Shown: positions 40,633-49,126 of the stretch, in pieces | Position numbering within the stretch: position 1 is the stretch's first letter | How the letters are laid out: every line of letters begins with the position of its first letter | Assembly (NCBI RefSeq): GCF_024919275.1 | Contig: NZ_JANWGH010000002.1 | Location: 62,001 to 126,000, forward strand | Origin: Algoriphagus limi | GTDB lineage: Bacteria; Bacteroidota; Bacteroidia; Cytophagales; Cyclobacteriaceae | Reading direction: 5' to 3' | DNA: 64,000 nucleotides | Translations under genes and position numbers: made by a program | The notes under the pieces: model-generated | Databases searched by the model: none | What the model saw: the letters and a program-made list of their open reading frames with translations, nothing else | Told to the model about the DNA's origin: nothing

Positions 40633-43079
40633 TATTCCCGAGTATAGTTACCGATTCGAATTACATCTGCAAAAACTCCAGCAGCAGTCACATCAGCTCC
40701 AGCTCCCGGTCCTCGGATAATCATCGGCCTATCCAAATACCGCTCAGTGGTCAATAGAATCATATTGTCGCTACCACTTAAGCTGCTAAAGGGATGGGAA
40801 TTCGGAAGGGAATTCAAGCCGACTTTTGCCTTTCCATTTTCAAGAGTTGCCATAAATCGAAGCTTCTCTCCTTTTGCTTCTGCTTCTTCCAATAGCTTCT
40901 TGAAATAGGTATCATGATGTTTGAGTTTTTCAAAAAACTCATGCACGGAAGCTGCATCCCGACAATCCTCGGGAACCATACTTTGAATTGAAATATCATC
41001 AAATTCAAGCTTCTGCTCGGCTTCTCTTCCCAAGATCAAAATCTTGCGGGCCACATCCATTCCACTCAAATCATCTCGAGGGTCAGGTTCTGTATATCCT
41101 TTTTCCCGAGCAACCCGGACTACTTCAGAGAAGGGATCTCCTTTTTCCAATTCAGAAAAAATGAAATTCATCGAACCGCTTAATACGGCCTCTATTCGAA
41201 TAACCCGATCTCCGGAAAGCATCAAATCCTGCAAGGTGTTGATCACAGGAAGTCCTGCTGCCACATTAGTTTCATATAGGAATCTTACCCCTCGTTTCTT
41301 TGCAAGACGCTTAAGGGATAGATATTGCTCCATAGAGCCCGAGTTCGCTTTTTTATTTGGAGTAACGATAGCGACTTTTGCTTCTAAAATTCTGGAATAG
41401 GCATCTGCCACCTCCTGACTTGCCGTGCAATCCACGAAAACCGAGTTGGAGAAGTTCATGTCCTCCATTTGCTGAATGAATTTTCCCAAATCCATTTTTT
41501 GATCAGCATCAGAAAGTTCATAGCCTTCTTTAAGATTGAAGCCATCCTCATGAAATGCCATGTATCGGCTATTGGCTAAGCCATGAATCTGAATATCCAA
41601 CTCGCTATCATCCCGAAGCTTTAGCTGCTGATTGGCTATCATCTTGATCAATGCCTTTCCTATCAAGCCTGTACCAACTAGGAATACGTGAAGAACTTTG
41701 TTTTCTGATAAGAAAAAGGCTTCGTGCAAGGCATTTAGTGCCTTTTGAAGGTCAGCTTGAGGAATTACTGCTGAAATATTAAGCTCTGAACTTCCCTGAG
41801 CAATCGCCGCAACGTTGATATTATTTCTTCCTAAAGCCCGAAACATTCTGCCAGATGCACCTGGATTATGCTTCATATTTTCCCCAACCACTGCGATAGT
41901 AGAGAATCCATGAAGTAATGAAACCTCATCCATCTCACCAGATTTGATTTCATAGTAAAACTCCTGCTCCACCACTTCCTTCGCTAGATAGGACTCGGTG
42001 GTTTTGATTGCCAAGCATACACTATGTTCCGAGGATGCTTGCGAGATCAGGACTATATTAACTTTGGCTTCAGCCAATGCTTTGAAAATCCTACTTCCCG
42101 CTGTTCCATCTAATAGAGCAGCCCCCTGCACAGTGACAATGGAAATATTGGACATGGAACTGATCCCCTTGATCAATGCTTCTTTGGTCACCTCCCCATT
42201 GATCAAGGTTCCTGGATTGGCAGGATCAAAGGTATTTTTGATACGAATCGGAATACTACGCTTCATCGCCGGCTGCATGGTTGCCGGGAAAATTACCTTC
42301 GCACCAAAGTGGGAAAGCTCCATCGCCTCATTATAGCTGAGTTGGGGAATGGTAAAAGCAGTGTAAACCAGATTGGGGTCAGAGGTCAAAACCCCTGAAA
42401 CATCTGTCCAAATCTCCAAATCCTCCGCCTCCAAAGCGGAAGCAAAAATTGCTGCAGTATAATCCGAACCCGATCTCCCGAGGGTGGTTGTTTCCCCCTT
42501 TTCTGTGGCCGCGATAAAACCGGTAATCACTTTGATTCCATCATGGTTAAGAAAATATTCTCGGATGAGCGCATTAGTTTTCTCAAAATCCACCCGTGCC
42601 TGTCCAAATCGATCATTGGTACGGATGACTTCTCGGGCATCCAAAAATTTCGTTTTAAGACCTTTAGCAGCTAAGGCTTCTGCCAAAATAAATGCTGAAA
42701 GACGCTCCCCAAAGCTTACCACATAATCCAACGTACGAGGAGAGTTTTCCTTGATAAGAAAAATCCCGTGAAACAGGTCTTCTAGCTCATTGAACCTAAC
42801 TTTAACATAGGTCATGACGGTAGATTGATTCTGTACAGAAATGAGCTGCCGAACCATATCCAAGTGCTTTTCTTCCAGACTTTGTAGTAAATCCCGGTAC
42901 ACCTGATCCCCTTCCCGAGCCATTCGGGCGATGCTGAGCAGGGTCTCCGTCACTCCTCCAAAAGCAGAAAAAACAACAGCCAAATCCTGTCTTTTTAGCT
43001 TTTCCTGAATGATGGAAAAAACTTTTTGGATCGTATCTGGATTCGCTATGGACGAACCTCCAAACTTGATAATTTTCAT
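40632..43079 (-). CDS. thrA: Bifunctional aspartate kinase / homoserine dehydrogenase I
   Basis: This 815-residue fusion has an aspartokinase domain (about residues 1-285, KFGGSSIANPD at the start and GRSGSDYTAAIFA), two ACT regulatory modules (about 310-455) and a homoserine dehydrogenase domain (from VFLVGTGLIGKAL, about 465, to the end) with YETNVAAGLPVI and DDLSGMDVARKI. It catalyses the first and third steps to threonine. It heads the thrABC operon and is preceded by a leader with a Thr-rich peptide. Confidence 0.95.
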   Translation of the reverse strand: MKIIKFGGSSIANPDTIQKVFSIIQEKLKRQDLAVVFSAFGGVTETLLSIARMAREGDQVYRDLLQSLEEKHLDMVRQLISVQNQSTVMTYVKVRFNELEDLFHGIFLIKENSPRTLDYVVSFGERLSAFILAEALAAKGLKTKFLDAREVIRTNDRFGQARVDFEKTNALIREYFLNHDGIKVITGFIAATEKGETTTLGRSGSDYTAAIFASALEAEDLEIWTDVSGVLTSDPNLVYTAFTIPQLSYNEAMELSHFGAKVIFPATMQPAMKRSIPIRIKNTFDPANPGTLINGEVTKEALIKGISSMSNISIVTVQGAALLDGTAGSRIFKALAEAKVNIVLISQASSEHSVCLAIKTTESYLAKEVVEQEFYYEIKSGEMDEVSLLHGFSTIAVVGENMKHNPGASGRMFRALGRNNINVAAIAQGSSELNISAVIPQADLQKALNALHEAFFLSENKVLHVFLVGTGLIGKALIKMIANQQLKLRDDSELDIQIHGLANSRYMAFHEDGFNLKEGYELSDADQKMDLGKFIQQMEDMNFSNSVFVDCTASQEVADAYSRILEAKVAIVTPNKKANSGSMEQYLSLKRLAKKRGVRFLYETNVAAGLPVINTLQDLMLSGDRVIRIEAVLSGSMNFIFSELEKGDPFSEVVRVAREKGYTEPDPRDDLSGMDVARKILILGREAEQKLEFDDISIQSMVPEDCRDAASVHEFFEKLKHHDTYFKKLLEEAEAKGEKLRFMATLENGKAKVGLNSLPNSHPFSSLSGSDNMILLTTERYLDRPMIIRGPGAGADVTAAGVFADVIRIGNYTRE

Positions 43080-47264: not shown

Positions 47265-47885
47265 GTGAATCTTCCCTCCAAATTGATTGAAGATGCTGTA
47301 ACGGAAATATCCCGTCTTCCAGGCATAGGAAAGAAAACAGCATTAAGACTTGCCTTACACCTCCTAAAACAACACGAAGCGCATACTGAAGCTTTGGCGC
47401 TTGCCATTACCAGAATGCGACAGGAGGTAAAGTATTGCAAAACCTGCCATACTATTTCGGACGAGGAAGAATGTAGCATTTGTAAAAGTCATAGACGGGA
47501 CGGGACCATTATTTGTGTGGTGGAAGATATTCGGGATGTTTTAGCAATTGAGAATACCAATCAGTTTAATGGAAAATATCATGTTCTTGGGGGTGTGATT
47601 TCTCCTATTCAGGGAATTGGTCCGGAAGAGTTACACATCGAATCTTTGATCAATCGAATTGATTCAGCTAAAGAAGGGGAACCTGTCAAAGAAATAATCT
47701 TGGCTCTTAGTGCGACGATGGAAGGAGATACCACAGCATTTTACCTTTCCAAAAGACTGAAAGACAAAGGAGTTGATATCAGCACTATTGCCCGCGGAAT
47801 CCCTGTAGGTGGAGAATTGGAGTTTACAGATGAGGTGACATTAGGCAGAAGTATTATGACTCGGGTTAATTACTCAGGTCAATAA
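47265..47885 (+). CDS. recR: Recombination protein RecR
   Basis: This 206-residue protein acts with RecFO in gap repair. It has an N-terminal helix-hairpin-helix (LPGIGKKTALRLALHLL), a Cys4 zinc finger (CKTCHTISDEEECSIC) and a Toprim domain (CVVEDIRDVLAIENT). The start is GTG at 47265: the clpS stop TAA is in frame 15 nt upstream and no ATG lies between. Confidence 0.94.
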   Translation: MNLPSKLIEDAVTEISRLPGIGKKTALRLALHLLKQHEAHTEALALAITRMRQEVKYCKTCHTISDEEECSICKSHRRDGTIICVVEDIRDVLAIENTNQFNGKYHVLGGVISPIQGIGPEELHIESLINRIDSAKEGEPVKEIILALSATMEGDTTAFYLSKRLKDKGVDISTIARGIPVGGELEFTDEVTLGRSIMTRVNYSGQ

Positions 47886-47934: not shown

Positions 47935-48011
47935 GGGGAATTAGCTCAGTTGGCTAGAGCGCTACACTGGCAGTGTAGAGGTCATCGGTTCGAATCCGTT
48001 ATTCTCCACCA
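47935..48011 (+). tRNA. tRNA-Ala (anticodon GGC)
   Basis: The sequence folds as a full cloverleaf with encoded CCA. The acceptor stem GGGGAAT pairs with ATTCTCC and has G3:U70, the alanine identity pair. The D-stem is GCTC/GAGC, the anticodon stem CTACA/TGTAG carries loop CTGGCAG with anticodon GGC, and the T-loop is TTCGAAT. It has its own promoter and terminator. Confidence 0.96.
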
Positions 48012-48045
48012 AAGGCTTGCTTTGACTGCAAGCCTTTTCTTTTTT
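48011..48045 (+). terminator. Terminator of tRNA-Ala
   Basis: The stem AAAGGCTTGC / GCAAGCCTTT with a 7-nt loop runs into a T-run directly at the tRNA CCA end. The same hairpin recurs twice more within 600 bp. Confidence 0.92.
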
Positions 48046-48093
48046 AAAGCATTTCTTCAGCCCTATTACAATTACTAATAGCGTGGTAGAGCG

Positions 48094-48111
48094 TCCCGAC
48101 ACCTGTCGGGA
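48094..48111 (+). repeat. Palindrome P1, copy a
   Basis: TCCCGACACCTGTCGGGA is an 8+8 bp perfect inverted repeat with a 2-nt centre. It lies where the anticodon arm belongs in tRNA copy 2, with tRNA sequence directly on both sides. Confidence 0.85.
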
Positions 48112-48125
48112 AGGTCATCGGTTCG

Positions 48126-48142
48126 CCCCGAATAATTTCGGG
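48126..48142 (+). repeat. Palindrome P2, copy a
   Basis: CCCGAA-TAAT-TTCGGG interrupts the T-arm of tRNA copy 2 and replaces its 3' half. Confidence 0.75.
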
Positions 48143-48190
48143 ACTCCACCAAAGGCTTGCTTTGACTACAAGCCTTTTTTATTTTTAGTT

Positions 48191-48442
48191 ATGTACTTTG
48201 TATATATTCTTTACAGCTCAAAAACCGACAAATTCTATATCGGATCAACTGATAATCCCGAAGCAAGGCTCAAGCATCATAATTCAGCATCGACCCCATC
48301 AACTAAAGCTGGAGCACCTCTCTGGGAAATCAAATACTTAGAAAAACTTTCAGATAGATCCTCTGCCCTAAAGCGTGAGCTTGAAATCAAAAAAAAGAAA
48401 AGTAAAAAATATATCGAGTGGCTGATTAACTCAGCTGGCTAG
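48191..48442 (+). CDS. GIY-YIG nuclease family protein ending in tRNA sequence
   Basis: This 83-residue single-domain GIY-YIG protein has FVYILYSSK, FYIGSTDNPEARLKHHN (with the catalytic Arg), WEIKYLE and a basic C-terminal helix (KRELEIKKKKSKKY). The ATG at 48191 is chosen because the frame upstream reads through the decayed tRNA. The final codons for INSAG and the TAG stop (48428-48442) lie in the D-arm sequence of the third tRNA copy. It starts a few nt after the terminator of copy 2. Such small GIY-YIG proteins are frequent in Bacteroidota; their role is unknown, and nuclease action is inferred from the fold. Confidence 0.85.
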   Translation: MYFVYILYSSKTDKFYIGSTDNPEARLKHHNSASTPSTKAGAPLWEIKYLEKLSDRSSALKRELEIKKKKSKKYIEWLINSAG

Positions 48443-48446
48443 AGCG

Positions 48447-48464
48447 TCCCGACACCTGTCAGGA
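48447..48464 (+). repeat. Palindrome P1, copy b
   Basis: TCCCGACACCTGTCAGGA differs from copy a by one base and sits at the same place, directly after AGAGCG of the D-arm. Confidence 0.85.
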
Positions 48465-48468
48465 AGGT

Positions 48469-48486
48469 CCCCGAATTACTTCGGGG
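48469..48486 (+). repeat. Palindrome P2, copy b
   Basis: CCCCGAA-TTAC-TTCGGGG is a 7-bp inverted repeat inserted in the variable-loop region of tRNA copy 3. Confidence 0.78.
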
Positions 48487-48506
48487 CAGGCTATCGGTTC
48501 GAATCC

Positions 48507-48527
48507 CTGCCATTGCCGGCAGGCAGG
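48507..48527 (+). repeat. Palindrome P3
   Basis: CTGCC-ATTGCC-GGCAG followed by GCAGG is a GC-rich inverted repeat inserted between GAATCC and GTTATTCTCC of the T-arm and acceptor of tRNA copy 3. Confidence 0.7.
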
Positions 48528-48700
48528 CGTTATTCTCCACCAAAGGCTTGCTTTGACTGCAAGCCTTTTCTTTTTCCTTTCCTTACCTCTTGAAGTATCC
48601 TTTATTTTAGGCTCAAAACTTCAAATCCAGGGATTTGGGAATCGCTTTTTCATCTTGAAAAGACAGAATAGGAATCGTATCTTGTTGGAAAGCTTTTCCT

Positions 48701-49126
48701 ATGAAAATAAGGGTTTTACAATTTAGCCTTTTGTTCTTTTCAGTCTTCGGACTTTTCTCTTCATGTGCCTGTAATCCAGAAGATCTTATCAAAGTGGCTT
48801 TTACTGGAATCGAAGCCATCATTGGAGATGGGTTTATTCCCTCTGACGAAATCAGAGCTTTAGGGGAATTTGAAAATATGCAAGTCAATTTGACCAATAC
48901 ACCAACTGAAAAAATCATAATCCTCCGTCTAGAAAATGGAGATCCCAAAAAGCTTTCAAACCAACCTGAAATATTAGCCAGAAAATGTGCTGAGATCTAC
49001 CTACGCGATTTTGACAATGCGCAGGAATACGATCAAATCATTATTCAATTTGTACAAACTGACCCTTATCAACCGGAAAATTATGCCATCCAAGAGCATG
49101 AATTCCAAGTGAGTGATTTCTTCTAA
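48701..49126 (+). CDS. Small lipoprotein, unknown function
   Basis: This 141-residue protein has a lipoprotein signal peptide with the lipobox Cys at about residue 22 (GLFSSC). The mature part is acidic with no recognised motif. It is 18 nt upstream of a small membrane protein on the same strand. I do not recognise a family. Confidence 0.65.
   Translation: MKIRVLQFSLLFFSVFGLFSSCACNPEDLIKVAFTGIEAIIGDGFIPSDEIRALGEFENMQVNLTNTPTEKIIILRLENGDPKKLSNQPEILARKCAEIYLRDFDNAQEYDQIIIQFVQTDPYQPENYAIQEHEFQVSDFF

Follow-up and report, generated by a model that had tools for sequence, protein, structure and literature searches.

A GIY-YIG nuclease gene among palindrome-bearing tRNA-Ala copies in Algoriphagus: a candidate tRNA-gene-specific homing element

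The tRNA-Ala locus beside recR

A small nuclease gene of Algoriphagus is found between broken copies of a tRNA-Ala gene and ends its own reading frame in tRNA sequence. The question raised by this locus is what such a gene does among tRNA copies and how it came to lie there. The window, i.e. the whole stretch of 64,000 nucleotides analysed in this study, belongs to an Algoriphagus genome of 3.77 Mb (G000), and all the features of the locus lie on the forward strand. The left neighbour is recR (47265-47885), a host gene taken from the ORF list which is present in 72/72 genus genomes and serves as the marker of the orthologous locus. It is followed by an intact tRNA-Ala(GGC) at 47935-48011 (anticodon arm 47962-47978), called by ARAGORN and scoring 65.4 bits with the Rfam tRNA model, and by the terminator hairpin of this tRNA at 48011-48037. 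The two disrupted copies and all three hairpins were delimited from the sequence and the repeat alignment. Copy 2 occupies 48080-48150 and its terminator hairpin (48151-48178) lies directly 5' of the nuclease gene; copy 3 occupies 48425-48541, with its hairpin at 48542-48568. The nuclease ORF of 83 amino acids extends from 48191 to 48442. A putative lipoprotein gene (48701-49126), seen in the ORF list and the flank comparison, is the right neighbour, and it also occurs in a relative (G017) whose corresponding locus lacks the nuclease.

The window repeat search has shown the tRNA-Ala 3' end and terminator three times, at 47997-48044, 48137-48184 and 48528-48575, as the initial annotation had stated; over these 48 nt copy 3 is identical to the intact unit and copy 2 has 79% identity. 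Its further observation that the GIY-YIG gene is the only listed ORF of at least 50 amino acids between copies 2 and 3 was also reproduced, together with the tRNA-derived ending of this gene: the last five codons and the stop, ATT AAC TCA GCT GGC and TAG (48425-48442), align with the 5' part and the D-arm of the tRNA. Copies 2 and 3 are broken as described there; however, they are not merely decayed, since the anticodon arm of 17 nt (CTACACTGGCAGTGTAG) is swapped for an 18-nt palindrome in both of them. In copy 2 this palindrome (48094-48111) forms an 8-bp stem with a 2-nt centre, and in copy 3 the same structure is found at the anticodon-arm position with one mismatch (48447-48464). More palindromes occur in the variable/T-arm region of the copies, at 48126-48142 in copy 2 and at 48469-48486 and 48507-48526 in copy 3. 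Neither copy was called as a tRNA by ARAGORN, nor by Rfam at E 0.1, and for this reason second copies were sought by alignment to the local tRNA. The pattern TCCCGA..TCGGGA is found twice in the window against 0.03 expected, and one of the two is that of copy 2. The other palindrome of this pattern (40957-40974) lies in an apparent coding region, far from any tRNA, and is unrelated to the recR/tRNA-Ala locus.

Mobile DNA in general favours tRNA genes as docking sites, mostly in the case of large elements with integrases. A large tRNA-targeting island was rejected for this locus, as the GIY-YIG gene is the sole ORF of at least 50 amino acids between the repeats, no integrase is present and the unit measures about 0.4 kb. 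A Y1 HUH transposase is likewise absent from the unit, the GIY-YIG gene being the only one between the repeats.

The 83-residue protein was found to match Pfam PF01541 (E 1.8e-16), and Y5, Y16, R26 and E63, corresponding to the catalytic Tyr, Tyr, Arg and Glu, are invariant in 30 sequences. Its structure model is a compact GIY-YIG domain (pLDDT 92.6). No Foldseek match to this model reached E 0.001; Slx1 (E 1.6e-3), UPF0213 BH0048 (E 4.1e-3) and I-TevI form the top of the list with a probability of 0.87-1.00, and by sequence the nearest protein is UPF0213 EF2693 (E 1.7e-4). Domain match, fold and catalytic residues all fit, and the protein belongs to the GIY-YIG superfamily. Slx1 is a eukaryotic structure-specific nuclease subunit, the function of UPF0213 is not established, and among Slx1, UPF0213 and I-TevI two are known as DNA enzymes. 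Purifying selection on the gene is suggested by dN/dS values of 0.21, 0.06 and 0.11, from the three comparisons (of eight) that gave a finite dS, two of these three at high dS; the dS ratios of distant pairs were dropped because of saturation. When the window protein was compared by tblastn with 50,697 phage records, no homologue appeared at E 0.01; sequence homology to phage SegB was accordingly not found, and a phage origin was rejected as nothing in this collection matched. The PHROG homing endonuclease models gave two weak matches (E 2e-4 and 5e-4) over 33-34 residues. A defence-system reading was also rejected, the PADLOC matches being partial and weak.

Nuclease genes, tRNA genes and palindromes across genomes

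The window's genome has four GIY-YIG genes (E 0.01), and all of them lie beside a same-strand tRNA (Ala, Leu-CAA, Leu-UAA and Met). A nuclease match at 1e-6 was obtained in 66/72 genomes of the genus, and in the class-wide sample 135/296 genomes have a match, with tRNA linkage checked for part of them only. For this purpose 108 class-wide loci were taken from the top of the E-value-ordered match list (28 given by the tool and 80 chosen), usually with a single locus from each array and with partial matches mostly skipped. An ARAGORN tRNA lies within 300 nt on the same strand in 86 of these 108 top-ranking loci, and on the opposite strand in 1/108; it is placed upstream in 73 cases and downstream of or overlapping the nuclease gene in 16. 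The 86 linked loci represent 15 amino-acid species, which bears out the earlier suggestion that homologues recur beside different tRNA species. The remaining 22/108 have no called tRNA nearby (3 at contig edges, 19 none). Linkage was found in 36/41 of the matches without any tRNA-coded residue and in 50/67 of the others; hence, the tRNA-like tail of the query is not the source of the association. In 17/108 class-wide loci, two or more nuclease matches share a strand and lie within 700 nt of sequence. A tandem array of nuclease units with a period of 379 nt was seen beside tRNA-Asn at L138 (G170:C9:624695-626348), in a genome with at least 16 matches.

In the named sample, which holds more distant proteins, 51/76 loci are tRNA-linked, 6 are at contig edges and 19 have none, Shewanella L124 and Oscillospiraceae L112 and L113 being among these 19. 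The nuclease is also held by Patescibacteria and Chlorobi/Ignavibacteria. In the tRNA-linked GIY-YIG genes of Patescibacteria (CPR; L083, L089, L109, L110, L114, L116 and L121), the called tRNA is mostly downstream. Palindromes are borne by the ARAGORN-called tRNAs of at least L107, L115 and L260, which are probably non-functional; because a few called tRNAs carry palindromes in this way, 'intact' tRNAs are slightly overcounted.

Most commonly, the called tRNA is upstream and a copy overlaps or follows the 3' end of the nuclease gene, and in a minority of loci the copy is upstream and the called tRNA follows or overlaps the gene. Against control regions beside another tRNA species, the 3' region matches its own upstream tRNA above all controls in 39/66 class loci and falls in the top 5% in 47/66, 4 further class loci being too short. 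When the class and named loci with an upstream tRNA are taken together, a clear downstream copy is present in 66/95 and none is clear in 29/95. The stop codon of the nuclease gene lies inside the downstream copy in 44 of these 66 loci; the copy starts after the stop in 20, and in 2 the stop falls in an unaligned block. Where the called tRNA is downstream, the stop lies inside it in 20/33 loci. Both counts agree with the earlier proposal that the homologues often take their stops from tRNA sequence. Among the 64 tRNA-located stops, 21 start at nt 20-21 (D-loop), 16 at nt 7-8 (U8-A9-G10) and 14 at nt 36-38. Stop codons present in the tRNA often end the nuclease frame, at U8-A9-G10 or in the D-loop. 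In the loci which were read, the sequence flanking the palindrome of a second copy matches the local tRNA on either side.

The relation between nuclease and tRNA species was analysed on a tree of 125 of 170 rows (named and class samples; 87 columns; 42/122 inner branches open). The trees exclude loci that lack a named called tRNA or a stop, and those whose ORF is below 65 or above 130 amino acids. The tRNA-species label changes at least 46 times over the 125 proteins, against a shuffled mean of 90.9, and 0/200 shuffles were as low. The Val, Met, Asn, Asp, Pro and Ser groups each span several families, with changes between species. Statistically, related nucleases tend to share one tRNA species.

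The survey of palindromes covered the 128 loci of the class and named samples that have a called tRNA, and took in replacement blocks from 10 nt upwards. An anchored second copy was obtained in 103/128 loci, and 91 replacement blocks were found in 70 loci. Stems of at least 6 bp are present in 61/83 of the intra-tRNA blocks (52/128 loci), against 2.5 blocks expected from shuffling; this count was made without flank, and an earlier stem listing had included 4 nt of it. In tRNA-Asn, nt 26-35 are replaced in 7 loci from 7 families, each time by a different 15-16-nt sequence, six of these being clear palindromes and one imperfect; other Asn loci have other sites. In tRNA-Asp, nt 39-50 are lost in four loci and different sites are affected in four more. 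Pure insertions are found in three Arg loci (after nt 22) and in three Ser loci (at roughly nt 36). Double hairpins are among the several palindrome types. For the same tRNA amino acid, nuclease relatedness predicts the palindrome site (Spearman 0.54, p 0.001), and 69% of the close nuclease pairs have their sites within 4 nt of each other against 22.5% when permuted. A wider rule, by which the palindrome site follows the nuclease whatever the tRNA, failed: the correlation of site with nuclease distance is not significant over all locus pairs (Spearman 0.07, p 0.10) and there is none between different tRNAs (Spearman 0.003, p 0.48).

The 18-nt Ala palindromes of the genus vary yet stay paired. 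In 30 distinct ones 94.8% of the cells are paired, and 31 cells show changes on both sides against 10.8 when shuffled (0/500 as high). These 30 were chosen by their ends from 45 distinct 18-mers, the other 15 being judged chance matches to the loose pattern, and the two covarying pairs played no part in the choice. Such paired variation could also be taken as a sign of a toxin-antitoxin-like system, in which the protein would cut the tRNA itself and a palindrome-bearing tRNA-like transcript would act as a decoy without the cut site. The tRNA-species specificity of the nuclease clades and the set place of the palindrome in the fold of some tRNAs point in the same direction. This reading is nevertheless considered very improbable, as many second copies are truncated or absent, unlike a needed antidote, the fold is closest to Slx1, then to UPF0213 and I-TevI, and the layout and the arrays fit homing at the DNA level.

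Across the 296 genomes, the median number of TCCCGA palindromes per genome is 10 with a nuclease match and 2 without (control pattern, 2 vs 2), these counts including the palindromes beside the nuclease genes themselves. The within-family permutation gave p 2e-4, and of 28 mixed families the number was higher in 22 and lower in 4. Similarly, at the recR locus palindromes are found in 23/26 flanks with the nuclease and in 18/38 without (p 0.001). This excess, between genomes as well as at one locus, speaks against two independent things, namely a tRNA-homing GIY-YIG gene and short mobile hairpins which are tolerated only in the spare tRNA copy. Rickettsia palindromic elements and mitochondrial hairpin elements are the models for such independent hairpins. 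They would account for the TCCCGA palindromes beside tRNAs without a nuclease match (L034, L040, L041 and L047), for those on many contigs of G008 (among the matches listed) and for the presence of several palindrome types, double hairpins included. On the other hand, the sites often involve the same nucleotides of a given tRNA across families and track nuclease relatedness within a tRNA species, and palindrome sites without a gene can be ghosts, as the comparison of a Lys-Pro-Arg-Lys cluster of G000 with that of G032 suggests. Independent hairpins are regarded as unlikely.

The G000 cluster (L048, G000:C4 around 74138-74630) has palindrome-bearing Lys copies and no nuclease, and the similar cluster of G032 (L033) has one; L048 is likely the ghost of a lost element. 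Palindromes were also observed in arrays of tRNA-Met. At L036 (G000:C1:344366-345067) many TCCCGA palindromes occur in serial copies, and the array of G017 (G017:C6:298933-300568) has ten palindromes within 1.6 kb among the matches listed. Further, G008 has 102 TCCCGA..TCGGGA palindromes on many contigs, many with the same centre (among the matches listed), e.g. three spaced 119 nt apart at C26:196492-196748. The G008 palindromes may be a separate repeat family.

Presence, absence and transfer at the recR locus

Flanks of recR were obtained from 70/72 genus genomes, of which 64 were judged and six were dropped as too short. The nuclease gene or its remains were found at the recR/tRNA-Ala locus in 26/64 flanks and none in 38/64 (tblastn E 0.01), some of the 26 matches being decayed, with stops or as partial matches. 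On the recR tree the presence of the nuclease changes 17 times, against 20.3 when shuffled and a minimum of 15, and the distribution at this locus is hence near random. Patchiness alone does not separate gain from loss.

Alleles without the nuclease exist at the recR locus, and with them the empty sites in close relatives which the earlier reading had called for. In G017, whose recR protein is 99% identical to that of the window, there is no nuclease at the locus and both the left and right flanks match; the locus has an intact tRNA, preceded by one palindrome copy, and the intact tRNA of the window is, by eye, the same as this one. A single clean tRNA is present at L170, where the left flank, tRNA and terminator are nearly those of L168, which has three tandem nuclease/copy units; the right flanks of the two do not align where compared. 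A different nuclease is found at the recR locus of another species (L191), in the reverse arrangement and with the palindrome in the D-loop.

The comparison of the window with A. marincola (G023) gave a pS of 0.76 for recR and 0.17 for the nuclease. The block of high similarity begins near 48150, where the tRNA 3' end gives way to the terminator, and ends near 48541 in the acceptor part of copy 3; 48150-48541 is taken as the approximate mobile unit. Outside the block the two loci align poorly or not at all, the tRNA itself excepted, and this includes the terminator that follows the intact tRNA. The unit of the window has diverged from that of A. marincola far less than the neighbouring recR, which indicates horizontal movement of the unit in one clear species pair and accords with the mobility proposed in the initial annotation. 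Over the genus, 9/28 pS pairs were computable; in 5 of them the nuclease is younger than recR by the margin applied, and in none is it older, recR being near saturation; strong discordance is confined to the single pair of the window and A. marincola.

These data also bear on a passive history, in which a tandem tRNA duplication trapped a UPF0213-like GIY-YIG gene that was then inherited vertically with the tRNA and lost many times. Patchiness, which leaves gain and loss undistinguished, is compatible with it, and so are the use of the same recR locus by close relatives across one genus and a tree that follows tRNA species, as vertical linkage also would give. A nuclease much younger than recR in the window/A. 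marincola pair is not expected from such a history, nor are the tRNA-species changes forced by the starred branches of the tree and the occurrence of the nuclease in Patescibacteria and Chlorobi/Ignavibacteria. Hence, passive inheritance appears quite improbable, and homing is kept as the preferred reading.

Proposed homing cycle and relation to known systems

We consider it likely that the unit is a tRNA-gene-specific homing element which, by a presumed cutting activity, works like phage SegB and the fungal mitochondrial mobile ORFs (mORFs). It would be a minimal selfish element of about 0.4 kb, consisting of a one-domain GIY-YIG gene whose 3' end is fused to tRNA sequence and which homes into one tRNA gene. 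The nuclease would cut the matching tRNA gene in an element-free chromosome, and repair from the donor through the tRNA sequence on both sides would copy the nuclease gene in, leaving the tRNA doubled around it, as is seen in the present layout. One tRNA copy would stay complete and serve the cell. In the other copy the stretch around the presumed cut site is often replaced by a palindrome, which may mark the cut site in the copy to be spared or may be the recognition site of the enzyme itself. The same activity on linked repeats could produce the tandem arrays which were observed. The chief difficulty for the homing view is that the presumed target persists in the intact tRNA next to the nuclease. 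Most of what the initial annotation chiefly predicted was borne out, and it missed the palindromes at set positions, the tRNA-tied subfamilies and the downstream position of the intact tRNA in some relatives.

More tentatively, and with somewhat less than even confidence, these loci may represent an undescribed large class of chromosomal bacterial selfish elements, made up only of a one-domain GIY-YIG nuclease together with a copy of the target tRNA that bears a palindrome. Each clade would have one position in one tRNA as its address, and the palindrome would be a working part, either as a shield of the donor copy or as the site on which a dimeric or hairpin-reading enzyme acts; stop triplets of the tRNA would be reused for ending the gene. 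If true, they would be among the smallest selfish elements, doubling an essential tRNA gene and using its stop triplets, and they would be common in Bacteroidota. They would also explain the clusters of odd tRNA copies in this phylum and offer a direct system for studying how a nuclease coexists with its own essential target.

Among known systems, the UPF0213/YhbQ-type and Slx1 GIY-YIG domains resemble the present protein in fold and size, and distant relatives without a called tRNA nearby include those of Shewanella L124 and Oscillospiraceae L112 and L113. Rickettsia palindromic elements are short palindromes which enter functional RNA genes, and in REP/RAYT systems palindromes are tied to a nuclease gene. 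Unlike in both of these, the site of the palindrome is here a recurrent one for a given tRNA and nuclease clade; the enzyme is a GIY-YIG nuclease, whereas that of REP/RAYT is a Y1 transposase. In the open-licence literature, which was the scope of the search, no account of a chromosomal, tRNA-specific, palindrome-marked GIY-YIG family was found.

SegB, as presented in the retrieved part of its description (PMC13096335), is a free-standing GIY-YIG homing endonuclease of phages T4/T6 which in vitro cuts the DNA of its own phage within tRNA genes. Segmental amplification in phage T6, with tRNA and its own gene in tandem, needs the nuclease activity of SegB (PMC13096335, same part). The likeness lies in a GIY-YIG gene placed among tRNA genes of many isotypes, and the cutting of its own phage's tRNA genes in vitro is a parallel to the difficulty of the intact target (PMC13096335, same part). 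Unlike phage-borne SegB, the window element is chromosomal, has one domain and belongs to clades tied to tRNA species; a palindrome-marked tRNA copy and a tRNA-built stop codon were not found described for SegB in that part of the source (PMC13096335).

The analogy with fungal mitochondria drawn in the earlier reading is documented. In the retrieved portion of the corresponding article (PMC3630166), mORFs with duplication of a gene 3' end are described from Allomyces atp6 and Glomus atp6/atp9/cox2/nad3; a horizontal origin is argued for them, and the atp9 case is GIY-YIG. The words 'palindrome' and 'hairpin' are absent from the main text of this article (PMC3630166). As in the present elements, an endonuclease ORF lies in a host gene of which a complete version is kept, with the displaced end beyond the ORF (PMC3630166, as retrieved). 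The host gene end thus occurs twice and flanks the nuclease ORF, a feature shared by the window and by the class loci with 3' regions in the top 5% (47/66). Differences concern the hosts, which are mitochondrial protein genes in the case of the mORFs, and the inserted end, which is visibly foreign there, whereas both tRNA copies look host-like here (PMC3630166, as retrieved). The chromosomal tRNA-linked family may be filed as a variant of the free-standing homing elements, nearest in its presumed action to SegB and the fungal mORFs.
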